The notes beneath the pieces were generated by a model. That model did no database searches. It was given only the letters and a program-made list of their open reading frames with translations, and was not told the origin of the DNA. A stretch of 64,000 nt of DNA, from NCBI GenBank assembly GCA_018127085.1, contig CM030722.1:434001-498000 (forward strand), written 5' to 3'. This DNA is from Pneumocystis sp. 'macacae'. Its lineage: Eukaryota > Ascomycota > Pneumocystomycetes > Pneumocystales > Pneumocystaceae. Shown here one piece after another: positions 25,836 through 41,773 of the stretch. How positions within the stretch are numbered: the stretch's first letter is position 1; each line of letters starts with the position of its first letter. The position numbers and the translations under genes were made by a program.

Positions 25836-28127
25836 TTAAAGCTCGTCATGATTCGGAAGCGGTTCATCACCGGCTACTTTTTCTGATTGATCTAAAAATG
25901 TTAATTTAGCTAATATTGATATTAGTTAACTTACATAATTTAGCTGTAATAGGTCCAACTTTATTCGATAATTCATTCCTCTTTTCCTCGAAATCCACTG
26001 CTGTTGCTGTCATTGCATTCTTTTCTAACCATTCTAATGTTTCCTAGAATATTTTTTAGTCCCTAATACTAATACTAATGTATATATTTACCTTTACGGA
26101 ATCCAAAACTGTTTGCTTATCTTCTTCACTTAATTTTCCACCAAGCCCCTCCTTATCATTCACCTGATTTTTGAGTGAATGCACAAAAGATTCCAGCGAA
26201 TTCCTAGCCTCAATCTTTTCCTTTTGTGCACGATCTTCATCTGCAAATTTTTCTGCTTCTTGAATCATACGTTCAATCTCTTCTTGCGACAATCGACCCT
26301 TATCATTTTTTATAGTAATTGATTCTGATTTACCCCCACCTTTATCTGTCGCTGACACTTTTAACACACCATTAGCATCAATCTCAAATGTTACTTCAAT
26401 TTGAGGCACGCCACGTGGTGCTGGAGGTATTCCTGTTAATTCGAATTTTCCCAGCATATTATTATCTTTTGTAAGAGAACGTTCACCCTCAAATACTTGA
26501 ATTAGAACAGTATCTTGATTATCAGATGCAGTGGAAAATATTTGTGATTTACGTGTTGGAATTACTGTGTTACGTGAAATTAATTTAGTCATTACGCCAC
26601 CAGTTGTCTCAATCCCTAAAGTCAATGGATTCACATCAACTAAGACAATATCCTCAACACCATCCTGATGAGATAAAATACCACCCTGTACAGTCGCTCC
26701 GTATGCTACCGCTTCATCTGGATTGATACCTTTAGAGACCTTTTTTCCATCAAAATAATCTTCTAATAATTGCTGTACTTTAGGGATTCGTGTTGACCCG
26801 CCAACCAAAACAATATCATCAATTTGAGATTTTTTAACATTTCCATCTTTAAGAACCTGTTCTACTGGTTTCATTGTTTTCTTGAAAAGATGCATATTAA
26901 GTTCTTCAAATTTTGCACGAGTCAATGTTTCAGAGAAATCTATACCATTATAAAGTGATTCAATATCAAGACGCACAGACAACTGTGATGATAATGTACG
27001 CTTAGCCTTTTCGACTTCGCGTCTGAGCTTACCCAGAGCCCTAGGATCATCGTCTAAATTGCCGCCATATTTTTGACGAAATATATTCTTAAAATATTGC
27101 ATCACCTGATGATCAAAATCTTCGCCACCCAAATGTGTGTCACCAGCTGTTGCAATAACCTCAAAGACACCGTCCTCAATTGATAGTAGCGACACATCAA
27201 ATGTTCCTCCGCCTAAGTCATAGACAATGATCAATCGCTCACCTTCTTTCTTGTCCAAACCATAAGCAATTGCAGCAGCTGTCGGCTCATTCACAATCCG
27301 TAATACATTTAATCCTGCAATTGTCCCTGCATCCTATGAAGAAATAGTTAGTACAACACTTAAACAAAACATTTTTGTAATCATTCGAAAAAAATTACTT
27401 TTCAAACAAAAAATTCAAACAGCTATTTCTAAAAAACGTTTTCAAGAATAAAAAGCTATCACACTTACTTTAGTTGCTTGGCGCTGTGCATCATTGAAAT
27501 AAGCAGGTACTGTAACCACTGCATGGGTAACCGTCCGACCAAGATATGCCTCTGCTATTTCTTTCATCTTACGAAGCACCATGGCAGAAATCTCTTCAGG
27601 TGTAAATACTCTCTTTTCTCCAGCAATAGTAACTTCAACATGCGGCTTTCCGTTATTATGTGAAACCTTAAATGGCCAATGTTTCATATCTGCCTGGACA
27701 TCCTCCTCGTCAAACCTCCTGCCTATCAATCGTTTTACGTCAAAAACAGTGTTTTGTGGATTTGTCGGTGCCTGATTTTTCGCTGCATCACCAACCAGAC
27801 GCTCTTCATCAGTAAATGCAACATACGAGGGTGTTATTCGATTGCCCTGATCATTCGCCAAAATTTCAACTCGTCCCGACAACATGACACCAACACATGA
27901 ATAAGTCGTCCCTAAATCAATACCAATTACTACAACAAACAAGTTAGCCCCATATCTATAAGAGTTATCAATTCAAAGCGTTCTCTACTGAGGCCCTTAA
28001 CTAAAACAGACCAAACGGCAATACATTGATAACCATTTGAGACTCGACATAAAGCAAAAGTAGAAACCAAAGGACTATAAACGCACATCCAGCCCAATAA
28101 CTTCCCCTTTCCAATGCATTCTCGCAT
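25836..28127 (-). CDS. KAR2: ER-lumenal Hsp70 chaperone BiP (Kar2/Grp78)
   Basis: ATP-driven chaperone of the ER lumen for translocation, folding and unfolded-protein sensing. The first exon (28034-28127) encodes a basic then hydrophobic leader ([22 protein letters not shown]) and joins across a 104 nt intron to [16 protein letters not shown]. The ATPase domain has [33 protein letters not shown] and [16 protein letters not shown]; substrate-binding starts near [20 protein letters not shown]. The last exon ends [12 protein letters not shown] and stop, an ER retention signal, which fixes the identity as BiP rather than a cytosolic Hsp70. The first-intron donor (GTTATC) is weak, so the leader join is the least certain part. 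Codon use is somewhat more GC-rich than in neighbours, as expected for a highly expressed gene. Confidence 0.96.
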
Positions 28128-28331
28128 TACTTCCATGTTACTTCTATGCTGATTCTTAAACTAAGAGTAATAAAATCTCCTGTGATTCCAAGCTATTTTT
28201 AACTATATTTTCTAACATCCTACTTCATCTTCATTCCCTCTCAATCTCCATTCAAGTACATCACAATTTCATTGTCCCATAGCATATTTTCTTTAAACTC
28301 TTAAACTTGTATTTTTTTAATTTATATATAG

Positions 28332-28339
28332 TCACGTGA
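28332..28339. promoter_or_regulatory. Palindromic E-box TCACGTGA upstream of BiP
   Basis: A perfect TCACGTGA about 205 bp upstream of the BiP ATG. The same octamer occurs upstream of RAD51 (49495-49502) and in the Myb/TRM11 spacer (58734-58741). This palindrome is the typical site of Cbf1/USF-type bHLH factors. The regulatory role is inferred. Confidence 0.5.
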
Positions 28340-28383
28340 ACATTTACCACTGGCAACAATCCTCAGTTACTAGATTGTTCATA

Positions 28384-28447
28384 GAATCTTCTAGAAACTT
28401 TTAGATAGAATATTCTAGAAACAGATGTGCCAGAGAATCTTCTTGAT
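28384..28447. promoter_or_regulatory. Cluster of heat-shock elements upstream of BiP
   Basis: Two perfect GAAnnTTCnnGAA units (28384-28396, GAATCTTCTAGAA; 28408-28420, GAATATTCTAGAA) and one near-perfect unit (28435-28447, GAATCTTCTTGAT). They lie about 260-320 bp before the BiP start codon. The alternating GAA/TTC pattern at 5 bp steps is the recognised HSF trimer site. Direct HSF control of BiP is known in yeasts, so the placement makes sense. Confidence 0.8.
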
Positions 28448-28795
28448 TCAATGCATTAAGCCTTGTATATTTAAGGATAAAATCGTGCAATTCCTTCCTC
28501 CTGGCTACCAAACACACTAAATACACGTTTACTTTACTTCTCTTTTCCAGTATTTTTGTTGTATTCTTTGCCTCGTTTGCTTCTTGATTATAAACTATCT
28601 TACCTGTCCCATATGATTCTTCCTTCTCTCCATTAACTACAAGCAATGCACTACATAAAAGTGCGCCCAAAACTCGACGAATACTCTGCAGTGAGCGCCT
28701 TAAAGGCGTTGCATACTCGCTTTGTATGCTTTGTTCACCCATATCAGCGGCGTTTCGATAGTTCTCATCGTCAAATCGCTGAAATATCCCAACAT

Positions 28796-28847
28796 TTAGG
28801 GTAGGGTTTTGAAGACATTGAATAAATGATGAGGGTAGGGTTAGGGC
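28796..28847 (+). repeat. Degenerate telomere-like TAGGG cluster
   Basis: TTAGGGTAGGG at 28796-28806 and GAGGGTAGGGTTAGGG ending near 28846, separated by about 25 bp. It lies about 295 bp before the U1 snRNA 5' end and in the same orientation as the larger array at 37.6 kb. Confidence 0.6.
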
Positions 28848-29108
28848 TATATATCTTAAATCAATAATAAGGATTAGGTCAACTATACATAACCCTTATA
28901 TTGCAGTATCCGAAAATACTGCATAAATTAAGTGTAGCCAAAAAAACAAGGTAATAGTAGACAATAAGAGGTTTTAAAAAGATATGTACGAAAAAAGATT
29001 CTATAAATAGGAAATCGAAATTTTTACTGTATAATATTTGAAATACAGAATAACGGATGTACTAGTGCACGCCACCGGCAGACAATATCGGAGTTTTAAT
29101 CAAAAGTC

Positions 29109-29116
29109 TATATAAG
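29109..29116 (+). promoter_or_regulatory. TATA box of the U1 snRNA gene
   Basis: TATATAAG begins 32 bp before the expected U1 5' end (29141), the standard spacing for an RNA polymerase II TATA element. Confidence 0.65.
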
Positions 29117-29140
29117 GAACCCCTCTGCGGAAGGTTCCGC

Positions 29141-29288
29141 ATACTTACCTGGCATCGATATCGGCAGCTCAAGAAGTGCTGGTATCTTGTGGAAGGGCCT
29201 AACATTGCACAGCGTTAAGCTCTCTGCTGCGAACAGGATTCGTCTTGTCTCGGATGCATCATTTTTGAATTCGTCCTTCGGGACTTTC
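29141..29288 (+). ncRNA. U1 spliceosomal snRNA
   Basis: The RNA begins ATACTTACCTGG, the invariant U1 5' end that pairs with 5' splice sites. Stem-loop I is GATATC(29157-29162)/GGTATC(29181-29186) with inner CAGC/GCTG and a TCAAGAAG loop like the U1-70K site. Stem-loop II pairs AGGGC with GCTCT and TAAC with GTTA around the 10-nt loop ATTGCACAGC (29204-29213), matching the U1A-binding ATTGCAC. GCATC after the 5' end pairs with GATGC just before the Sm site ATTTTTGA (29261-29268), forming helix H. The terminal hairpin GTCC-TTCG-GGAC (29273-29284) follows. The 148 nt length is normal for a compact fungal U1. It partners with LUC7 in this window. The frame that overlaps it is spurious. Confidence 0.95.
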
Positions 29289-29504
29289 TATTCCTTTTTC
29301 ATGGCGAAACCGCGAGTTTTCAACGGCTTGGCACTGAAAAATGAATGGCAAGGCTCTGATAGGCATTGGGTTCGAGTAGTGTTCTATGTTGGTGCTTATA
29401 GTTGTGCTAATATGGCGTTAAATTTGGATTATATGTACATATTGTATATGATTTGTCCATCCAGAATCTCTAATTAAAGTTGGAAACCCAATTTTTTCCA
29501 TACT

Positions 29505-30787
29505 TTATCGACCTTTTTTACCTGCCCGTGTAAGTCTTGTCGTTGACTTATAGAAACCTACCAATTGCAAAAAATGGTTATCATTGATATATGTTACAAT
29601 CATGTCTTCAAGTGTTTCTATATTTTCTTCTTGAGAACAAGATGTATTTGACTCATACGATGCCGTTCGTGGCGGCGTAGGCGGCTTTACGACTGGAACG
29701 CTTTTTTCATGCTCTAATCTGCTTTTTGGTTGTAGATCGGGCACTTTTTCTTTCAAATCACTTGAATTTTTACGTGATTTACTCGGCTTCCTGCATTTTT
29801 TTTTTCCCTCTACCTCTTGCCCTTGGTCGTTTTCTAACCCACGTTTTGCCGTCTCAGTCTGTATATGCTGATTCAAATACAGAAACTTGTTTGTACTTGA
29901 CGGCGTCGGCAAACGCATATCCAGCAAACTTGCTGTTGCTGAACCCATTGTTTCCGACCTCAATTGCTCCATATAACTCGCCTCTGTCTTTGGCAACGGC
30001 CCTTCGCTTTCCCGCAAACCATTCCTCCGGACACCATCAAAGTGGAGACACCTACTTCCTATTTCGGACGATGCGTCAGCCAACATGGCCGGTGACGTCT
30101 CTCCGTTCAACACGTCTGTCAACACACGTGTTTCCGACTTGACTGGACACGTCTCGACTGCATGGCGTACCTTTCCCACATACTGCTCCAAAATGCTTTT
30201 TACAGAAAAAAAAATCTCTTCCGTCGAAAACTTCATCTGGAAGCGTGCAATTTTCTGTCTCATTGTCAATACATGTATTTCTTCTTCCCCCACTCTGTTT
30301 CTGAATACCACTTTAGCTTACCTTGGATACATCGTTATACCACTTAATCCCAATACAGGGTACCCGGGTGATCACAGCAATTCCTGACTGCTGCGTGCTG
30401 TTTTCTGTATATACAGGAGGAATAATAAGCTTTGAGAGCCGCGTAATATTGAGCATTTCCTATACCCGTCAGATGGAGAAAAAAGAGAAGAAACAGAGAT
30501 GCATAGAATGTACAAAACACATCTGTATATATTGTATGCAAGTCTCTGTATAATTTAATGCTTACAAAAAGAATGGCTCCTCGCACCACCCTTAACGTAA
30601 CCTCATCGTGACCCGCAACGATACGCCTCTCAAACTGGATTTCAAGGTCGCGATGCGGGTAATGTAGCCATTGGATGTCGTTAACAGAGTGTTTCTGCGA
30701 TGACCCAGAGACATCTTCCTTGGGTGTTGCATATGAGTATCGTTCAAGAGGAAAACTCAAACTTGTAAAGCCGCTCTTTTCCTTCAT
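29505..30787 (-). CDS. Unrecognised three-exon protein of about 370-390 residues
   Basis: I do not recognise the family. Exon 1 starts at ATG 30785-30787 and reads WLHYPHRDLEIQFERRIVAG...VTLRVVRGAILF up to a GTAAGC donor. Exon 2 (30322-30459, exactly 46 codons, phase 0 on both sides) has NITRLSKLIIPPVYTENS and VITRVPCIGIKWYNDVSK. Exon 3 starts MKFSTEEIFFSVKSILEQYVGK, followed by a Ser/Lys/Pro-rich disordered stretch with a basic patch (KKKCRKPSKSRK). It ends with a helix-like segment (NIETLEDMIVTYINDNHFLQLVGFY) and a basic tail. The perfect phase match and globular N-terminal composition argue that it is real. The basic patch suggests a nuclear protein, but that is only inference. It lies tail-to-tail with U1. 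Confidence 0.6.
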
Positions 30788-31707
30788 TCCCCCTTACAAA
30801 TACTCTACTAATCACCTTCCTACGAGCCTCTCCTAAACAGACCTATAAACCGACTATATGCACTGACTATATACACTGTTTATAATATCTGTCAGATATA
30901 TGCATCAATATTGCCCATATGTTTATTGTATGCACCAATATACCTACTATATGCACAGATTCTCCTACTCTATGCACCAATACCGTCGATATCTCTCTCC
31001 CCTCGCTCTCCTACTCGCTCTTGCTTTCCTCCCCTGTTTTCTCTCATCGAACCTCTCCCACGCTCTGCGTGTGTTCTTTTTTCTGTTTATTCGCTGCCTG
31101 TACCGCCTGTATATGTCTTTCTCTTGCTATATGTGTCTTTCTCTTGCTGTATGTGCTTCTTTTCCTATTATATGAGCCTCTTCTGTCTTTGCTTGGCACT
31201 CTTTCCCTCTCGAGCCAACTCGCCCTGCCATCAATATTCATCGACAGGCCCTCCCTGCATTTAATCGGACAAATCGTGTCAAGTGAGCCCTAAGCCCTGT
31301 TGCCTATATAGTTGGGTTACAGACTCCAATGAGTTGCAGAATATGCATTCTACAGCTTCTTTCCTGCATTTCTATATGCATTTCTACTTGTGTTGCACAT
31401 CATAATGTATACACCACATGTTCTACTGCATCATATACTTACTCGCATGTGAGTGTATAGTATACTGAATACTTGCAGTATGCATTGGAACACACGTACC
31501 CGCAAGTCGTTCACGGTGTGTCAGGACACATATGTGTTCTAAAAGAAATCCCGGTGAGCGTACACAATGCGCGTATAGTGCAATAGTACGCATACACAAC
31601 ACATATACAGCGCATATACCAGCGCATACATGCACTAATCAGACGGGAAACGGCGTTTTGGTCTCAGATAGACAGATTTTGTCTTCACAAGCTCTGTAGT
31701 GGCGGGG
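30788..31707. repeat. Repeat-rich spacer: TATGCAC-type arrays and a pyrimidine tract
   Basis: The 920 bp divergent spacer between the unnamed gene and RSC9. 30850-30985 repeats TATATGCAC/TATGCACCAATA-like units. About 30985-31250 is strongly C/T-rich on the + strand. 31370-31640 has more TATGCATT, GCGCATATAC and CATACATGCAC units. The open frames across it are low-complexity by-products. I see no RNA gene. Confidence 0.6.
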
Positions 31708-34700
31708 ATGCGTGGTAAAGGGTTGATCAAGGTGACAGACGATGAAGACATTGAACGGACAGACGAGTACAATGCATTCGTTAAGAACCTTGAAGAATAT
31801 CACGCAAAACGAGGGTAAGCAGGGCAGAATATCTGAGCAGGAGCACACAGTGGAGTTAGGAACATGTAGCAGAGTAAAAGTACATCAAAGCACAGTAAAA
31901 CCCAGTGAAATGCAGAAGCTGTATACTAGTGCATAGTCTGGTGCATAGGCCAATGAGGCGCAATAAATGCATAAAAATGCGGTAAAAGTATAGAAGGATA
32001 CAATGAAACCGTAAATACACTGTACAAATGCAGTAAGAACACACCAAGACACAATAGATGGTTGAAAGAACAAAATATGTGCTTAGAAAAGTGAAGCAAA
32101 ACGAAGAAACAGTGGATGCAGAGAAAGTGCAAGAATTCACAAAAACACACTGGAAATGCAGTTAAATGTGCTACAAATACAGCAAATATGCAGCAAATTG
32201 CAATAAATCCTTGAAGAACAGCAACAAATGCAATGACGCATGATAAAAGCATAGTAACATCTAGAACAGAATGCAGGCTGTGCAAAGAGAAGAAGACAGA
32301 ATGATGCGTGTTTTGCAGTGCTTGATGTTGCTCAGGAAGAATTGCTTGGAGGAGATTACTGATGATAAATAGAACAGGGACGTTTGTGCGGGAACCAGTA
32401 ATTGGGCCACACCGGATCGACCTTTTGAAGCTATACAACAGAGTGATTGCGTTGGGTGGCTACGACAAGGTGTCAGCGGAGAAGTCGTGGTGGAAGAACC
32501 TGTCTAACCATTACAAACTGCCGCCCATGTCGAATGCAGGGTATCTTCTCAAGTCTATCTACTACAAGAACCTAGCGTAGGGTCCATGTTTGCACTACAG
32601 GGCTGTTTGGGCACTGGAGGGCATTTTTGGTTTTTTTTCTTATTGTTTTCAGTGCATGGGAGATGGAAATGCATTGGAAGCGGACGCCACCAGCACCAGA
32701 ACATCTTGAGTTTCAAACAGCAAAAGGGGGAGATATTATGACACGAACAGCGGAGAATTATGCACCAACGAAGGAGGATACACGAGCAGATTCGGAGTCG
32801 CCGAGACCTGTGCTTAGAAGTATGTAAAATGGCTCTGAGAGTAAACAAGGCAAAGCTGCAGACGAAAAAGCAAGTTGCTGGTAGACAAAATGGTGTAGGA
32901 GTTGAATATGGATTGAGGAGGAATTGCGGAGAAACTATAGGACTATAGAAAATGCAAAAAATATGCTAAAACAAGCTAAAAGTAGACTTGGAGAAACTTT
33001 AAATGTAGTTGAAGGAAACAGAAAGAAACCTGCACTGCATTTTGTTTATAAAAGCAAGATGGAAACAGTGGACCAGTAAATGGATCTAAAGAAGCACTAT
33101 TGTGTGGCATAGCAACAAATTTATCAGACTGCTGGCTTGATATCAGCAGTAAAGTAATGCAACAGCTATTTCAGCCTCAGAGTCAGCTCTGTGATGCGGT
33201 TAAGTTAACGAGTTTGTAGGTTTACGGGCAGCACCAACACCTCGAACGTTTTATCAGCCAGAAGATCGTTCGACACAGACACGGACAGCATTGCAGGCAC
33301 AGGCACAGGCACAATTGCAGGCACAGGCACAGGCACAACCGTTCTCTACACACTTCGCAACCTCAACATTTCCAGAAGAAGCTAGCCACCAACTACAACC
33401 ACAGCCCGTTATCACGCCAGCCAATGCTCATGCACTTGAATATCTAAAAAATAACAGTTATGGGTCGCAGAATGGGGGAAAAATAGGAGGTGAGTTTCTG
33501 CAGAGAATGGCAGTTCTGGCTATTCCTCTGCAATGCTGACACTGGCATCGAATGTGTATTAATGGCGGCAGCGGGGATTCAGGGTGCCCCCTTCATGGTC
33601 AGAATTGCACTTGCACTCAAGTCGGGGCTGGTATCCGAGCTGGACTGGGCCTTGCATCATCTCGTCCGACTGTCGTATGAACAGGGAAACAATCTTCGGT
33701 TTGACAGGATTCCAGATCTAGCAGAGACCCTAATCAAAAAGCTCTACGAGTTCTTGAAAGAAGTATCAGGAAAAGACGGCATTGTTGTTTATGAAAACGC
33801 ATTTAATGAAGACAGCGATGATTGGTCTATGGACCACCAGTTCAGAAAAACATTGGATAAAATACTGGAGGCTGCACTTATTCTTCGCAACCTTGCACTG
33901 CTTTCAGACAATGCAAGCTATCTGGCCCGGCTGGAAATGACACACCCTACACTCGTTCTAGGGATTCAAAGAATGAACGACTTTTCCTCGGTAGAATTGA
34001 AACATTACTGCATGGATATCATCGAAGCAGTCAGCTTTTATACAGTCATAAGCGACGAAAAAGACGGTCTCTATCTGGGCCTATGCGAGCTGCTCGAATG
34101 CGACGACAGAGCAATGCTGATTGGCGCACTAAGGGCTCTTGCACGGCTCGCTCTCCACGACCTTAACAACCGTCTGCTTCAAAACATCCCTCCCCCTGTT
34201 TTCGACAGGATACGGCTTCTCCTCAGTCTCGACGACGAAGAACTCCTGAGCTCTGCCCTCGACTTCATCTACCAGTACACAACATATAAGGCCAACACAC
34301 TCAGCATACTCGAGCTCGACGACGTGCATGATCTGGTCGGCCAGCTCGTCCGTCTGATGATGTTCCAGGCCGAAGAAAAAGAGATCCAGCTTTCCCTCTC
34401 CACAAACGTCAAGCACCTCATGCCCTCCGGCCCTCCCCCGCTCCCTGCCGAGATCGTCCAGGAACTTCTTGGCTTCGGCGAGCCCGACAGAGCCATCAAG
34501 TGGATGCGTGTCTGCTACGAAGAAAGCACAAACGACGACATCACACAGATGCATCTCTGGCAGTCATACCAGGCAAGATTCTCCCCCTTCATCGCCGCCG
34601 GCAGACCCCTCCTCCCCGCCGCCGACCTCATCAAGATCGCCAGCCGCGCATTCCCCAACGCCAAGGCCCTCGTCCTCAACTCCTCCGACGGACAGACCTT

Positions 34701-35238
34701 CGTCATCAGAGGCGTCCGCCCCCGCCAAATCCCCGTCTCCATCCGCGGCGAGAGCTATGTCTCCTGCCGCTGGGCCCCCACCCCCGACTCCGACCCCGCC
34801 CCCTGTGCCTCCCAGTTCCCCAGCCCACACGAGCTCTTCCGCCACCTCATCGACCACCACCTCCCCGAGGTCCGCCTCCTCTCCTCCTCTGCACCGCCCC
34901 TCGTCTGCAGGTGGTCTGGCTGCTCCCGCTTCCCTTCTCCCGGCGAGAAGGACCGCTTCCTCGTCCTCTCCCATCTCAGAACCCACATCCCCGACAAACC
35001 CCCCACCACCCGCCCCCCCGACCTCCTCTCCATACACACAAAGACCACTGCCGTCGACGACCGCGGCGACGCCATCGGCATCGCCCTCACCGCCACCCTC
35101 ATCCTCCGCAACCTCGCCCGCTCCCGCCACCGCCACAGCCTCTTCACCGCCATCGAGGCCGCCATCATCCATGTCGTCGCCCTCAACCCCGTCCTCTCCA
35201 CCTATCTGTCTGAGCTCCTCGTCGAGATCAGCCGCTGA
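31708..35238 (+). CDS. RSC9: RSC chromatin-remodelling complex subunit Rsc9 (ARID-RFX-zinc finger)
   Basis: DNA-binding subunit of the RSC remodeller in the nucleus. The ARID domain starts in exon 1 (DEYNAFVKNLEEYHAKRG) and continues after a 558 nt intron (FVREPVIGPHRIDLLKLYNRVIALGGYDKVSAEKSWWKNLSNHYKLPP...LKSIYYKNLA). After 76 nt and 400 nt introns comes WEMEMHWKRTPPAPE...KGGDIMTRT, then an AQ repeat. A long helical core follows (LILRNLALLSDNASYLAR). The RFX-type DNA-binding segment is LWQSYQARFSPF...LIKIASRAFPNAKALVL...FVIRGVRPRQIPV, and C2H2-like fingers (CRW...H..HH, CRWSGCSRF...H..TH) end the protein. GC content climbs from moderate in the ARID exons to about 75% in the last exon. Its introns are far longer than elsewhere. 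The 3' end overlaps the MET22-like frame on the other strand. Confidence 0.92.
31815..32372 (+). other. Long RSC9 intron 1 with degenerate AATGCAG units
   Basis: The 558 nt intron (GTAAGC donor, AAATAG acceptor) joins two halves of the ARID domain in frame. It is filled with A-rich sequence punctuated by ATGCA/TGCAG units, such as AAATGCAGTAA, AATGCATAAA and ATATGCAGCAAA. Typical introns in the window are 35-50 nt. Confidence 0.7.
33291..33338 (+). repeat. Perfect 24-bp tandem duplication in RSC9 coding sequence
   Basis: The 24 bases at 33291-33314 are repeated exactly at 33315-33338. Each copy itself holds three GGCACA-type hexamers. It encodes alternating Ala-Gln (LQAQAQAQ twice) in a Gln-rich linker of Rsc9. 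Confidence 0.9.
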
Positions 35239-36238
35239 CGGTCCATAGCCACAATAGCATCCCGTGCACAGCCCACTGCGTCTGCCATGCACCACTGCGC
35301 GCACTGCACGCACCACTGCTGCATGCAGCGGAGCGGCTGCTGCAACAACGCCGTATGTCTGCAGCGTTGTGCCGTATGCCAGCGGGCGCCCCTCTGCATC
35401 ACTGACTGTGCCGCCCGCCTCTGCAACAATCAGTGCACCGGCTGCATGGTCCCATGTCTTCTCGCGGTACCGGTGGTCTGCTGCGAGCCGCAGATAGATG
35501 TCGCAGTCGCCACATGCAAGCAGTGCATACTTGACCTGCGAGTCGATGCGGACAGCAGGCACAATGCCGAGGGCAGCAGCAGCCTGTGCCTGTGTGTGTG
35601 ACGGATGGGCGACGCTCTGGCAGAGCCGCGCATCGCGGATGCGGCGACACGCAGCCATCTGCAGGCGCGTGCCGCAGACGTCTCCGCGCAGCAGTGCCTC
35701 GTCGAGCGCGGCAAGCGGCAGGCGGAATGCGCCGTGCCCGCGCACCGCATAGACCACAGTGCCCGCGGCCCAGTTTGGGCATGCAAGCACCCCGACGACA
35801 GGCTGTGCGTCGACAAGCAGCGCAAGACAGACAGCATACTGTCCGCCGCGCAGAAAGCCAGCAGTGCCGTCGACTGGGTCGACGACCCACTGGCGTGCAG
35901 CAGCACAGCGCCCGTGGTCGAGTGCAGCAAGCAATGCGTCGGCAGACGCAAAGCGGTGTGTGTCGGCGACAGCGCGCCACACACGGTGCAGCAGCTGTGG
36001 ATGGCGTCGCAGGACAGCAGCGTCCTCCTCGGCGAGGACGGCGTCGTGCGGGAACGCGTCGCGCAGGGCGGCACAGATGAGCGCCTGTGCAGCAAAGTCG
36101 GCAGCAGTAGCAGGCGATGCGTCGTCCTTGCGGATGCAGTCGGTGCCTGCGCGGCGGACAGCGTGCACAGCACAGGCGGCAGCAGCGAGCGCGGTGCGGC
36201 ACTCGGCAGCAAATGTGGGCGCAGACATGTCGTGCCGT
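34564..36238 (-). CDS. MET22: 3'(2'),5'-bisphosphate nucleotidase (Met22/Hal2 family), with uncertain 3' end
   Basis: Mg-dependent, Li/Na-sensitive phosphatase that removes PAP produced in sulfate assimilation. The start MSAPTFAAECRTALAAAACAV is at 36236-36238. Motifs: VLAEED (metal-binding Glu pair), WVVDPVDGTAGFLRGGQYAVCLALL (motif A, DPxDGT), and TWDHAAGALIVAEAGG (motif B). The family normally ends about 10 residues after GVVAAAAPLHAAVV, near 35270. Here the frame has no stop until 34564, running 675 bp antisense through the RSC9 3' end as Gly/Asp/Glu-rich sequence. Either an unseen splice or frameshift ends it near 35.25 kb, or the protein has a 220-residue tail. The homologous part is 35275-36238. 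Composition is extremely Ala/Arg/Cys-rich and Lys-poor, following the GC island. Confidence 0.75.
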
Positions 36239-36638
36239 ATGCGCGGGTGCACACCGTATGCACGCTATATGCACGCACTGTGCGGGGTGTATGCACGCAG
36301 TTGTGGAGTGTATGTGCAGAACATGGGGTGTATGCGCAGTATATGCATTTATGTGTACTATGTTGTCTGCAGCGTTTGCTGTGCGCTGTGCGTTGCCGCT
36401 GCATAGCACTGCTGTGTGCACCGGTGCACGTTGGATTGCATACATCGGTCAGCACTGTATGCGCAGTGTATGCGAAGCGTGCTGTATGGGGTGTATGCGC
36501 TATATATGTATTGTGTGCACACCATATGTGCAGTATATGCGTAATGTATGCCTATTATATGCGCAGTATGCGCCCAATGCACTGTGCAGACTGGTTATCA
36601 TTGCATGCACACTCCAGCGTGCCCGCCATCCACCGCGC
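36239..36638. repeat. Divergent promoter made of degenerate TATGCGC/GTATGC units
   Basis: About 400 bp between the MET22-like and C3HC genes. The + strand repeats GTATGCGCAGTATATGC, GTGTATGCGC and CATATGTGCAGTATATGCG with substitutions throughout, giving alternating purine-pyrimidine runs. It resembles the arrays at 30.85-31.0, 31.4-31.64 and 59.26-59.76 kb. No RNA gene is visible. Confidence 0.65.
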
Positions 36639-37541
36639 ATGGAGCGGGGAGCACGCAGGCGGCGCACTGCCGCACTCGCTGCACTCGACACTGCACTCGC
36701 ACGCTCCACCGACACGCCCCTCATGCTCCAGGCCGCTGCCCACAAGCGCCCCGCATATGCGCCCTGGAGCCGCACCGACTTCTCGCGCAGACTCGCCACC
36801 TTCTGGGCGTTTCCCTGGCACTGCACCGACTCGCCGCTCTGCGCCGTTGCCTGGGCAGGGCGCGGCTGGGTCTGTGTCGACCGCACTGTCGTCTGCTGCG
36901 AGCTCTGCAGGCGCCGCCACGACCTCACACACAGACCGGCGTCCCCCGGCTACACCGCCGCCACGGCCGAGCAGGCGCTCCTGCGCCTGTCTGCAGCACT
37001 TGCCTGCGACGGCCATGCCGACAGCTGCCCCTGGCGGCGCCGCGCATGCGACAGTAGGCCGCACTCCCAGCACGCTTACCTGACAGACTCAATTATGCGG
37101 CTGCCGCTTGCCGACCGGCAGGCAGCACTTGCTGCACACTGTGCACGCACCGAGCTTCTGTCCACAACAGACCACGCACTGCCCGCTCTGCTGCTGCCTG
37201 CAGACACAGACTGTGCACAGTCGGCTGCAGAAAGACTGTCGCTCTTTGGGTGGACACGTGTCACCGTCGACTCGGTCGAGCTGCTTGCATGCACAGCCTG
37301 CCACCGGCGGACCGGGCTGTGGGCGGCCGGAGAGCGCGTCTTCGACGTCGTCCACGAGCACAGAGACTACTGTCCGTGGGTCAGTGCTGCAAGCCAGGCT
37401 GCCGACGCTCCGGGCTGGAGACTGCTTGCACAGTGGGTCGAGGGCGGGCACAGCGGGGCTGAGACAGATGCACGGGTGGGGCGGCTGCGCGGGGTTTTGC
37501 AGGGCACAGAGGGACAGAGGCGCATTAGGCGGGCGGAGTGA
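36639..37541 (+). CDS. C3HC zinc-finger protein (NIPA/Rsm1-like)
   Basis: The C3HC finger reads YAPWSRTDFSRRLATF, then CAVAWAGRGWVCVDRTVVCCELC and HADSCPWRRRAC, the W...GW..C...C...H...CPWR order of the NIPA/Rsm1 family. A second copy-like part follows (RLSLFGWTRVTVDSVELLACTAC...FDVVHEHRDYCPWVSAA), matching the Rsm1-like C-terminal half. Relatives act in nuclear mRNA export (fission yeast Rsm1) or as an F-box-like ubiquitin ligase factor (NIPA). The ATG at 36639 precedes ERGARRRR; it is the best start in a frame with no introns needed, although a 33 nt intron around 37050-37085 is possible. The protein is unusually Ala/Arg-rich because of the local GC bias. Confidence 0.8.
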   Translation: MERGARRRRTAALAALDTALARSTDTPLMLQAAAHKRPAYAPWSRTDFSRRLATFWAFPWHCTDSPLCAVAWAGRGWVCVDRTVVCCELCRRRHDLTHRPASPGYTAATAEQALLRLSAALACDGHADSCPWRRRACDSRPHSQHAYLTDSIMRLPLADRQAALAAHCARTELLSTTDHALPALLLPADTDCAQSAAERLSLFGWTRVTVDSVELLACTACHRRTGLWAAGERVFDVVHEHRDYCPWVSAASQAADAPGWRLLAQWVEGGHSGAETDARVGRLRGVLQGTEGQRRIRRAE

Positions 37542-37559
37542 TGAGCACTGCAGGCAAGC

Positions 37560-37880
37560 CGGGCGCAGTGCAGGGTTAGGGTTGGGTGCGAGCGTGAGGC
37601 GTGGCAGGCAGCTGTTAGGGCTGGTTTGGAAGGAAGGGTTAGGGCTGGGCAAGGGCTGGGGCTGAACAGCGGGAGGGCTAGGGTTAGGACAAGGGCTGGG
37701 TTAGGGCTACGATTGGGTTAGGTTAGGGCTGTGATGGATTAGGGTTAGGAGTGGGTATAGGGCGGGGTTAGGTACAGGGCAGGGCGGCTAGGTGTAGGGC
37801 TAGGGCGGACACGATAGGGTAGGGTAGGGAAGGGTAGGGCAGGATGCTCGAGGGCAGGGTCAGGGTTGGGGTAGGGCTGG
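37560..37880 (+). repeat. Interstitial degenerate telomere-like array (TTAGGG/TAGGGC/TAGGGT)
   Basis: About 320 bp with more than 25 closely spaced GGG-containing units, many of them TTAGGG, TAGGGC or TAGGGT, interspersed with GGCTGGG and GCAGGG. All are on the + strand, between the C3HC gene and PAN2. Four-run G tracts with short loops make G-quadruplex formation likely. It is too degenerate to be an active telomere end. Confidence 0.85.
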
Positions 37881-37916
37881 GCAGTGTATGGGGGCAGCGG
37901 GGGGACGGGCGGGCCG

Positions 37917-40900
37917 ATGGGCGAGTGGGCGCGGGAGTGGACACAGGTAGGCGGTGGAGACGAGAAGCAGGCTGACAGGCAGGTTGGGTGCTGCGGGGCG
38001 GGGGAAGCAGGAGCGGTGACGGCATCGTGTTTTGACGAGCACTTCGAGCTTGTCTGGGTGGGGAATGAAAAAGTTTGCAGAGGCTGTTGGAGAGGAGGCT
38101 GAGTAGACAGGGACGGGTGAGCTCGTACTTTGGGGCGGAGCTCTGCCGGTACACAAGCACAAGGGCACACAATGGGGGGGTGTGTTCGCTGGTAGCACAT
38201 GAACGGGGGATTGTGTCGCTGTCGAGCCGAAACATGCGGCTGACGAACCGGCGGGGGCTGTGCCGGTGGTCGCTAAGGTGTGGGGAGCGGTGTTTTGGGG
38301 TGTAGTCTTATTGGCAGTGATGTAGACATGGTGGATCTTGAGTGTATGACGGTGGTCTGCCGAGGATCGTCGGACATACTGGTGGGGGGGCTGCAGACGC
38401 AGATGCTGGTGGTTAATGTGGAGAGGGGGGCAGTGGTGAGGAAGCTGGTGAGTGTGGGGAGGTGGGTGGAGAGTGGAGGGCTGAAGGAGGAAGAATCGGG
38501 AAAAGGACACGGTGGTGATGCAGGAGGGACGGTATATTTGCTGTGGCGCGTCTACGGGGGAGCTGAGTCTTCTGGATCCGCAGTCATACAGGGAGATGCA
38601 CAGGATAGAGGCACACAGCGGGTCGTTTTCGGATCTTGATGTGCAGGGGAATCTGATTTTGACATGTGGGTTTTCCCAGAGGTAGGGCTAGGGCTAGGGC
38701 TGGGGTTGGTGCTGAGGGCCAGGAATGAGCAGTATCTGCTGGACCCGCTTGTGAAGGTCTTTGATGTGCGGACGCTGCGTCCGCTGGTTCCGGTGCCGTT
38801 TCCAGGGGGACCGGCGTATGTCAGGATGCATCCCAAGATGTCGGCGACGGCGTTTGTTGTGAGCCAGAACGGGCTGTTCCATGTTGTCGATGTGGGCAAT
38901 ACGGCGGATGTGCAGCTGAGGCATGCAAGCACAAACACGTATTTTTCATCGTTTTGTGTTTCGCACTCGGGGGATGCACTTGCACTGTCGGATGCAGATG
39001 GGGGTGTGCAGTTGTGGAGCCAGAAGCGTGTGCCGCATTTCTCGGAGTTTTCGGGGTCTCTGGAGTGGCCGGATGCCTCTGTTCATGTTCCAAATGTCCG
39101 TATACACAGCGACACGTGAGTGGGTTATTTGTCTGGAGATAGCTATTATTTAATGAGATTAGCCCTTTGAATGTAATTGGCATGCCCTATTATCGGGAGG
39201 AGCTTCTTTCTTTTTGGCCTTCTCATTTGGTCTATGATGTCGGGAAAGTGTCTCATATATTAGATCAGGATGCGCTTTCCAACATGAAAATGGTGGATTT
39301 TGTTGGCTATTCTATATATAATGGGAACATGAGGAGGAATCAGGCCAGATATTATACTAGAGACAAAGGGGATGGAATACAGAATTTGATTGCTCCGAAA
39401 TTTCATAGTGAAAAAGCGAAGGAATTGGTTTCAGGTGACATGAAAAAGAATTCTGCTCCATTGTATTTTGAGGATGAAGACAGCGACTCTGCCGAGCCCT
39501 TTATTATACCGAAGTTTTATAAGCTATTGGAAATAAAGTATTCCAAGTTTGGTGTGGAAGATTTTGACTTTGGGTATTGACAAAAAATTTATTTACTAAA
39601 AAACAAGGTTGACTTTTAAAGATACTACAATAACACACCTTTTTCTGGGTTGGAAATCCACATTGAAAATTCATATTGCAATTCCTTAATCCAGCTATAT
39701 TATTTCATACCATCTATTCGTGAATTAGCCATAGCACATTCCGTTTCTTCTTGTGTACAAGAAAAATGTCTTCTTTGTGAAATGGGATTTCTTTTTAAAA
39801 TGCTTTCTGATGCAAATGGTCAGAACTGTCAGGCTACTAATTTTTTACGTGTTTTAAGTATATTACCACAAGGTAATTTTTTATTTCGATATTTCTTACT
39901 TTATTGCTTATGAAATAAGCTATGTCGTTAGGCCTCATTATAAATGAATCTATGGAAAAAAAGAGTTCTTTTTCTTCTCTTATACAGGCTTTAAATAGAT
40001 TTTTATTGGAAAAATTGAGTGACGAATCGTTAAATACACATTCATTAAATCCGCTTCATTCTACTATTATTTCGCCTTTGGCCGAAACAAATGGGATTTT
40101 TTCAAAAACAATAACTTTTTGTGATTGCGGGGCAAATTCAGTTAGAGATTCTATTGTTTTTGTTATTGATTTTATTTACCCAAAGGTTAAAAAGATATCA
40201 CATATTTTTCTCATATTGATTTTTAGAAGATAACTTCAGAAAAAAAGTCTTCATTGGCGTCATTTTCTTTAATTTTAGGAGTAAGTATTAATCGTGAGAT
40301 GCAAAATAGAGCCTGGTGCCCTAATTGTCATCAATTTCGGTTTCTTAGTACTCGGAGAACAGTCAGTAATTTCCCATGTTATTTGAATATTAATGCAATG
40401 GCTTACACACAAGATCATTGGAAATACTGGAGTTCTAAAAGCTGGCTTCCAACCAAAATAGGTTTAAGTCACCATTTAGGAAAGGTTGTTTGTTTTCAAG
40501 GCAAAGATATCGATAAAAAAATAGGAAATGGTGGACTTACTATTTACAATTTAAAAGGACTTGTGGTAGAAATTTCTTTTAAGAATGAATCTCACCTCGT
40601 TTCTTTTATTCATGGTTTGTTTTGTCTTTTTATTATTTCGTTCTACTTATTTGAGAAGTAACTGATAGAAATATAGAGCTGAAATATAAAACATCATGGT
40701 TTCTTTTTAATGATTTTTTAGTAATGTCCGTTCCTGAAGATCATGTTTTAAATTTCTCAAAAGCATGGAAAGTACCCGCCATATTGATATATGAGAAAAT
40801 AGATTATTCAGAGGATCTCGAAAAGATTAGTTTGCCTCCTTTTGATACATCGGTTTTGTATAAAGATTATTCTGTTTCATTGTATGTTTATATTATTTAT

Positions 40901-41773
40901 GCTAAATTGTTTGATGAATTCAGGAAACGAGATATGCAATTTATACGTCATCAAATTCTTACAGAAACAGAGAAATTAGATAATAACACAGTTATTGGAT
41001 TAGATGCCGAATTTGTGTCTATGCAAAAAGAAGAAATAAATGTACGCAGTGATGGAACTAGATGTATCGTTAGACCTAGTAAACTTTTATTGGCAAGAGT
41101 GTCTGCAGTTCGAGGAAATGGAGAATTAGAAAATGTTCCATTTATTGATGACTATATAGTTTTAAATGAACCAATTATTGACTATCTCACTGAATTTTCT
41201 GGAATTAAACATGGTGATTTAGATCCAATAACATCCAAATATACACTTGTTCCGTTAAAGGTATGTCTTGTCTTATTTTATCTACAAAGTAAAATATCTA
41301 AAAAATTAGTAGATTGCATATAAGAAATTAAGACTACTTGTAACTCTTGGTTGTAAATTCGTAGGTCATGGACTGCAAAAAGATTTCCGAATAATTAGTA
41401 TTATTACTATTTTTCTCGAAATATTTTTAATCTAGATAGACATACATGTACCTAAAAATCAAGTTATAGACACAGTAAATCTTTTTTATCTTGAAAGCCG
41501 TCAAAGGTATAAAAATAATGATATTTATTAAATAATATAAATGAATTTAGGAAACTTTCATTACGTTTTTTGGCATGGTATCTATTGCAGGATTATATTC
41601 AGCAAGATAGTCATGATTCTATTGAGGATGCTAGAACTGCTTTATTACTTTATAAAAAGTATAACGAATTTAAAGAACAAGGGATTTTTGAGGAAAAATT
41701 AAAGGAAATATATGATTTAGGCAAAAAATATGGTTATAAACCACCAATAATAACTGAAGAAAAAATACATTAA
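37917..41773 (+). CDS. PAN2: PAN2, catalytic subunit of the PAN2-PAN3 deadenylase
   Basis: Poly(A)-specific 3' exonuclease that trims mRNA tails in the cytoplasm. WD40 propeller: [96 protein letters not shown] and [21 protein letters not shown]. The linker has [19 protein letters not shown]. An inactive USP-like domain follows ([24 protein letters not shown]). The DEDDh exonuclease shows [27 protein letters not shown] and [13 protein letters not shown], with all catalytic acids and the His present. Upstream exons are GC-rich, downstream exons AT-rich; the switch falls around the intron 39116-39162. Start by ATG at 37917 (GEWAREW); the very N-terminus is less certain. Confidence 0.92.
38682..38716 (+). 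other. PAN2 mini-intron built from telomere-like repeats
   Basis: A 35 nt intron starting GTAGGGCTAGGGCTAGGGC and ending GGTGCTGAG. Removing it joins LTCGFSQR to [14 protein letters not shown] in frame, which the PAN2 family requires. It therefore consists mostly of three TAGGGC units. Confidence 0.75.

Follow-up and report, generated by a model that had tools for sequence, protein, structure and literature searches.

Gene conversion that favours G and C (GC-biased gene conversion, gBGC) produces local hills of GC content at stable recombination hotspots; it is blind to strand and neutral to exchanges between G and C. GC-skewed promoters that form R-loops carry an excess of G on the displaced strand, and replication origins show a weak, long-range change of GC skew from negative to positive. 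At the centres of double-strand break (DSB) hotspots in mouse and human, work by Smagulova in 2011 and Pratto in 2014 reportedly found a nucleotide skew that changes sign, which becomes faintly visible when thousands of sites are averaged. Here, we describe a GC island at the genes RSC9 and PAN2 in a 64 kb stretch of DNA (contig C3, positions 434001-498000; hereafter the window) from the 8.27 Mb, 19-contig assembly of Pneumocystis sp. 'macacae' (P. macacae), a lung fungus of macaques with an AT-rich genome, together with further islands of the same kind elsewhere in this genome. We consider it somewhat better than even (probability of roughly 0.55) that these islands are break-repair bubbles at fixed sites, most likely hotspots of DSB formation in meiotic recombination.

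Mutations within 2 kb of human meiotic breaks are strongly strand-asymmetric, a pattern ascribed to strand-specific repair, and resection covers 1-2 kb, according to PMC7615360. Similar to this human mutagenesis, the islands show a mirror asymmetry about a centre, arms of 1-2 kb and a middle part without asymmetry. They differ from it in that the human pattern is an excess of de novo C>N and A>N changes, whereas in the islands the strand that leads toward the centre has gained C almost to saturation, within one genome. With gBGC hills they share the rise of GC at discrete sites through coding and non-coding DNA, yet they separate C and G by side and G>C changes occur in them. The change of sign resembles the one at mouse and human DSB hotspots, but here it is displayed by each single island (26/26). 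Gene-conversion bias and break mutation are usually faint statistics, whereas this footprint can be read from a single genome. Among the matches listed, no description of such islands was found in the open-licence PubMed Central literature on Pneumocystis or on hotspot asymmetry. We tentatively propose, as a possibility that falls short of an even chance, that P. macacae has a previously undescribed, site- and strand-directed hypermutation, in which a repair bubble travelling outward from each of about 50 fixed places turns any base into C on the strand that leads toward the start site.

C-rich left arms and G-rich right arms

A preliminary description of the window had pointed to a GC hill on the basis of five hand counts, all of which were reproduced exactly (13, 31, 45, 40, and 15 of 60 bases). 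The rise in GC toward the 3' end of RSC9 was likewise found (third-position GC content, GC3, of 0.60, 0.38, 0.53, 0.62, 0.75, 0.80, 0.90, 0.87, and 0.93 in consecutive 60-codon steps of the last exon), as was the return of PAN2 to AT within one gene (GC3 from 0.72 to 0.12-0.25). The outline of the hill, taken to be symmetric and about 8 kb wide, had to be revised: its core covers only 4.9 kb, its right edge is steep (39.0-39.6 kb), and on the left it adjoins an 8 kb shoulder which resembles a second, weaker hill. The most telling feature, missed so far, is the combination of a C-rich left arm with a G-rich right arm. Fourfold-degenerate sites of RSC9 between 34659 and 35196 comprise 103 C, but only one G, four A, and five T, while those of PAN2 in the right arm comprise 37 G and five C. 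The PAN2 introns and the upstream spacer have an excess of G as well, and the skew statistic of the island in the window exceeds all of 200 block shuffles.

Searching the genome with unbroken G/C runs and with the core itself yielded at least 56 candidate places on 17 contigs with a median spacing of about 100 kb, which contradicts the idea of a single island. This list was assembled by hand and omits single-base runs as well as runs close to contig ends; because the places were picked by their G/C runs, strong islands are favoured. Of 26 stretches fetched for closer analysis (20 first, six later; flanks seen to about 5 kb), 25 were islands, giving 26 together with the one in the window. The remaining stretch (L027), whose place is still among the 56, was not an island and was excluded from all island averages. 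The 26 islands are uniform, with more than 50% GC over 2.6-4.9 kb (median 3.7 kb), a lower bound for those, L031 and L033 among them, that start close to a stretch end, and with a mean GC of 60-66% against a background of about 30%. GC climbs from about 30% to 65% across exons, introns, and spacer alike, i.e., AT>GC changes are in excess in coding and non-coding DNA. In total, the genome may contain about 50 islands, which at 3.7 kb each would correspond to roughly 2% of its length. The hill itself stands, but not as a solitary feature.

All 26 islands are mirror-skewed, with the + strand C-rich on the left and G-rich on the right. When the islands were aligned on their GC midpoints, the pooled GC skew was -0.35 at -2.0 to -1.0 kb and +0.36 at +1.0 to +1.5 kb, with -0.13 and +0.12 directly to the left and right of the midpoint; the bins starting at -2000 and -1500 were negative in 26/26 islands and the one at +1000 was positive in 25/26. 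Splitting the islands at the GC midpoint, which is independent of the skew, resulted in a negative left and a positive right side in all 20 islands of the first set and all six fetched later. For the latter six, mirror skew had been foretold before their sequence was obtained. The change-point statistic was above all 200 block shuffles in 20/20 (window plus 19) and 6/6 islands, respectively, and ranged from 0.18 to 0.49 in the 20 islands, compared with 0.05-0.15 in twelve 4-kb control windows. In these controls, the statistic for the opposite arrangement (G left, C right) was 0.08-0.21, its maximum stemming from a window that overlaps the shoulder. Among four partial 3-kb loci, L002 and L007 exceeded all shuffles; L003 and L005, which overlap and represent a single site, failed to do so.

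The reach of the asymmetry is about 2.5-3 kb. Beyond 3 kb, the pooled skew is only -0.04 to +0.05 in bins with 14 or more islands; the outermost right bin, at +0.10, is reached by just seven islands. This reach bears on replication origins, beside which the lagging-strand template would mutate asymmetrically. The skew changes from negative to positive as it does there, and about 50 sites with a median spacing of about 100 kb (from the hand-made list) would suit such an assignment. Fork asymmetry, however, should persist over tens of kilobases, whereas the strong skew of the islands, followed into flanks of about 5 kb, is gone by about 3 kb on both sides and is accompanied by a GC rise from 30% to 65% over 4 kb which origins leave unexplained. 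Because of the short reach we regard origins as quite unlikely.

Gene strand, substitutions, and related species

Gene direction and codon usage are not the source of the skew. This was examined at fourfold-degenerate sites in 23 Pfam-confirmed frames of the fetched islands (25 of 40 scanned open reading frames had a Pfam match; the weak matches CUE in L014 and Whi5 in L024 were left out) and in the four genes of the window. In 27 of 29 gene pieces, which cover all four combinations of side and strand, the bias is fixed by the side of the island and not by the strand of the gene. On the left, the + strand gained C in + genes (RSC9, RSC4, a DEAD helicase, ARV1, ABC, SNF7, and TBP) as well as in - genes (TTI1, HMG, and PIL1). 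On the right, the + strand gained G, again both in + genes (SWIRM oxidase, UTP15, EMP24, SEC2, OMP decarboxylase, TRF, and SQS) and in - genes (KA1 kinase, IleRS, a GST_N_4 protein, UCH, a class II tRNA synthetase, and separase). In L021, the preference flips within the single reading frame of RRN3 (C 107 and G 37 on the left, C 7 and G 35 on the right), and in L031 it flips between two convergent Pfam-confirmed frames.

These results are of relevance for a transcriptional explanation, in which a central bidirectional promoter would drive outward transcription and R-loops would expose the displaced non-template strand (+ on the right, - on the left) to mutation toward G. The polarity of the islands equals that of R-loop-forming promoters, whose downstream sequence has a positive GC skew, including the G excess on the strand displaced outward. 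In addition, 4/25 fetched islands have a tRNA gene no more than about 170 bases from the skew switch (L010:5744, L016:4598, L022:5423, and L028:6176). On the other hand, the islands lack a consistent central promoter, and the left-arm genes RSC9 (+, transcribed toward the centre) and TTI1 (-, transcribed away from it) have an equal + strand bias, in line with the count of 27/29 for annotated frames; unannotated antisense transcription may exist besides. Promoters are disfavoured since the skew ignores gene direction and since the centre of L021 falls within a gene and that of L031 between two convergent frames; on the grounds of these two flips, a divergent promoter was rejected as origin of the skew. 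Altogether, an R-loop origin appears unlikely.

Read on the strand oriented toward the centre, the proportion of C at fourfold sites increases from a background of 7% to 69% at 1.2-1.6 kb. In contrast to this, G is at 7% in the same interval and at 9% at 1.6-2.4 kb, compared with 9% in the background, and climbs to 14-30% only within 1.2 kb of the centre. As background served all open frames of at least 180 amino acids outside the hill, taken together as a set. Protein comparisons allowed changes to be polarised in two genes of one island, RSC9 and PAN2. In RSC9, at columns where P. oryctolagi, P. murina, and a metagenome protein agree, 38/237 columns were changed at 34400-35240, 5/101 at 34000-34400, and 1/110 at 33570-34000. 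The minimal base changes in the RSC9 arm were A>C 18, G>C 13.5, A>G 10, T>C 6, and A>T 3, followed by the rarer G>A 2, C>T 1, C>A 1, T>A 0.5, and C>G 0. In the right arm of PAN2, 8/137 agreed columns were changed, compared with 8/467 elsewhere in the gene, and most of the base gains there were of G (6.5 of 9). The AT-to-GC excess expected in the preliminary description from a comparison of orthologues is thus seen in the P. macacae lineage, although what the process brings about is a gain of C on one strand, whatever the original base, and not a general AT>GC shift. A local mutational regime can consequently rewrite conserved proteins, with 16% of agreed RSC9 columns changed within 840 bases and 1-5% beside them.

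The preliminary description had suggested gBGC around a persistent hotspot, or a local mutational or repair regime. Ordinary strand-blind gBGC at hotspots, with the asymmetry supplied by a local mutation bias, would account for the plateau of 60-66% GC in coding and non-coding DNA and for the smooth edges. It is difficult to reconcile with G>C at 13.5 against C>G at 0, with a G content at outer-arm fourfold sites no higher than background, with the separation of C and G by side in 26/26 islands, and with the low diversity within the species (PMC7940399), and we consider it highly unlikely. As gBGC makes no distinction between strands or between G and C, a strand-directed process of mutation or repair is needed. 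The local regime was therefore nearer to the mark, and the geometry is indeed that of a hotspot, while the single hotspot is replaced by dozens of sites.

The genes concerned are vertically inherited, as had been assumed. Orthologues of PAN2 are present in four further named species of Pneumocystis, including the nearest relative P. jirovecii, and those of RSC9 in two; the gene names are upheld by these orthologues and by the domains. The PAN2 modelled here is 98% identical over 90% of its length to PMAC_002095 of P. sp. 'macacae' and 87% and 80% identical to PAN2 of P. jirovecii and P. oryctolagi, respectively. For MET22, the best foreign match is from P. oryctolagi; as a single Pneumocystis relative was compared, its changes are unpolarised. 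P. jirovecii RSC9 was absent from 37 matches, and P. jirovecii MET22 from the best 120 of 292. PAN2, RSC9, and MET22 of the relatives read as ordinary proteins, which places the origin of the island of the window within the lineage of P. macacae. For DNA in such sharp contrast to the background composition, one might invoke contamination, horizontal transfer, a chimeric assembly, or centromeres, and Mis12 chromatin immunoprecipitation (ChIP) peaks of P. macacae do tend toward GC-rich regions, as stated in PMC10327204. But the gradients cross single orthologous genes, and the nearest relatives of PAN2 and RSC9 are Pneumocystis proteins, by which, together with the MET22 match, horizontal transfer was rejected. 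Against a chimera stands the assembly from Nanopore and Illumina reads, reported in PMC7940399 as a genome of 8.2 Mb in 16 scaffolds. Centromeres were discarded as well, given that those of P. murina and P. carinii, as described in PMC10327204, number one per chromosome and average 3.9% lower GC, whereas the islands are GC-rich with several sites on most contigs. Of all explanations considered, this group is the most improbable.

Break repair as possible origin of the islands

The polarity of the islands, with an exposed strand running outward 5' to 3', would be common to D-loop extension from a break, R-loops formed during transcription away from the centre, and the lagging-strand template beside origins. 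What makes a break-repair bubble fit is the short reach of about 3 kb combined with two-sidedness, and this reach matches the scale of resection plus conversion tracts. The tRNA genes beside the switch in 4/25 fetched islands likewise suit this reading, as they fit open chromatin at the centres. In the mechanism that we propose, a repair bubble would travel outward for about 2-2.5 kb in both directions from each of about 50 fixed initiation sites. The strand running 5' to 3' away from the centre (+ on the right, - on the left), comprising the displaced D-loop strand and the newly extended strand, would remain single-stranded longest. Lesions or mismatches on this exposed strand might then be resolved by placing C opposite any base, so that A, T, and C would turn into G on the exposed strand, while on the partner strand C would take the place of any base. 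Repetition over the history of the lineage could have brought neutral sites near saturation (up to 91% C), distorted the proteins, and formed the mirrored C and G arms.

Insertion of C opposite non-instructive lesions corresponds to REV1-like chemistry. Exon-by-exon searches did not find the Y-family domains IMS and IMS_C in the genome, while the same searches matched in 11 and 10 of 14 control genomes; this might either reflect a real loss or a splitting of the domains by introns. The search for REV1_C gave no match in the genome and none in the controls either. With respect to break formation, an exon of a Spo11-type TP6A_N domain on contig C12 scored above the family cut-off and a second exon below it.

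Besides the missing IMS and IMS_C domains, which would speak against a REV1-type step, several further observations weigh against break repair as the origin. The centres of the islands share neither a motif nor an arrangement of genes, 21/25 fetched islands are without an Rfam tRNA gene, and the central stretch of the window has no Rfam match at all. MET22 (58:81) and RSM1 (49:42), both in the central zone of the window, slightly break the side rule. The low within-species diversity (PMC7940399) limits conversion acting alone. Moreover, the asymmetry at human breaks has another base preference, the forward strand there showing C>N and A>N changes (PMC7615360); the loss of A agrees with this, but C is gained, not lost, on the forward strand of the left arms.

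Several short words stand out in the islands. GCATAC/GTATGC words cluster around the switch point at distances of up to about 1.5 kb, and CACGTG is over-represented (45 compared with 14.1 expected, in 14/20 islands). In 20 islands, TTAGGG occurs 39 times on the right and never on the left, and CCCTAA 40 times on the left and eight times on the right; degenerate TTAGGG-like words in right arms and CCCTAA in left arms are above order-3 expectation (CCCTAA 79 compared with 26.6). Telomerase healing was rejected as their source, since the polarity is opposite to that of telomere addition at a break and tracks the C/G skew.

If break repair at fixed sites is correct, hypermutation would have overwritten about 2% of the genome, including parts of TBP, separase, RRN3, OMP decarboxylase, and RSC9. 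Initiation points and tract lengths could then be read off the islands, which would predict coordinates of recombination or break sites, in a genus that lacks reliable culture and genetics, and strand geometry, i.e., strand, distance, and base, would be directly measurable from them. The same islands might also explain two published features of this species. There are 4-6 Mis12 ChIP peaks per chromosome in P. macacae, which tend to be GC-rich and whose meaning is unclear according to PMC10327204; the islands may be natural candidates for these peaks. Furthermore, PMC7940399 describes 190 arginine/glycine-rich 'RG proteins' specific to P. macacae, nearly half of them subtelomeric. As GC-rich skewed DNA yields Arg/Gly-rich frames, part of the non-subtelomeric members may derive from islands, judging by sequence composition. 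For this genome, GC-rich ChIP peaks and 'families' that are alike in composition should accordingly not be taken at face value. Near contig ends (e.g., C3:307, C4:553170, and C8:480288) a common GC-rich word is found, probably belonging to subtelomeric repeats and perhaps to the published RG genes.

Features of the window and its left shoulder

The coordinates of the genes and compositional features are compiled in Table 1.

Table 1. Genes and compositional features at the GC island, in positions of the window.
Feature	Position	Strand	Remarks
RSC9	31708..35238	+	start and early exons by eye; last exon 33577-35238 counted; ARID domain
MET22-like 3'(2'),5'-bisphosphate nucleotidase	35250..36228	-	3' end unsettled; frame without stop until ~34564
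Rsm1-like gene	36639..37541	+	zf-C3HC and NuBaID_C domains
PAN2	38328..41773	+	12 modelled exons; PAN2_N/UCH_1/RNase_T domains
Core of GC island	34129..39020		>50% GC in 600-base smoothing; mean 63%; 4.9 kb
Left arm, + strand C-rich	34129..35250	+	within RSC9 last exon
Central zone, no consistent skew	35250..37300		GC midpoint 36574; skew change point 37304
Right arm, + strand G-rich	37300..39150	+	over PAN2 upstream spacer, 5' exons, and introns
G-rich spacer, degenerate TTAGGG-like words	37545..37950	+	A73 C55 G209 T69
Left shoulder, weaker hill	26000..34000		~35-46% GC; own C-left/G-right switch near 31.5 kb

More PAN2 5' coding sequence was recognised by eye at about 38.0-38.3 kb, where it resembles PAN2 of P. 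jirovecii. The public model PMAC_002095, whose start lies within the island, is shortened (877 amino acids, whereas the P. jirovecii protein has 1086), and the public RSC9 model PMAC_002092 spans just 42% of the last exon. While the 11 modelled PAN2 introns measure about 40-75 bases, the RSC9 introns in the shoulder (31815-33218) appear long, some of them 400-500 bases by eye, and contain degenerate words such as GCAGTAAA.

In the left shoulder, GC skew and AT skew both switch near 31.5 kb, immediately before RSC9, from a pyrimidine-rich left to a purine-rich right side, to which Hsp70 codon use may contribute. The shoulder also carries a U1 spliceosomal RNA gene at 29141-29286 (+) (Rfam RF00003, 70.3 bits, cut-off 69.5). 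A frame at 30344-30787 (-) has a weak match to Meiotic_rec114 (Rec7) with an E-value of 0.00057 and 20.5 bits, under the cut-off of 23.8, and may represent an accessory gene of meiotic break formation.

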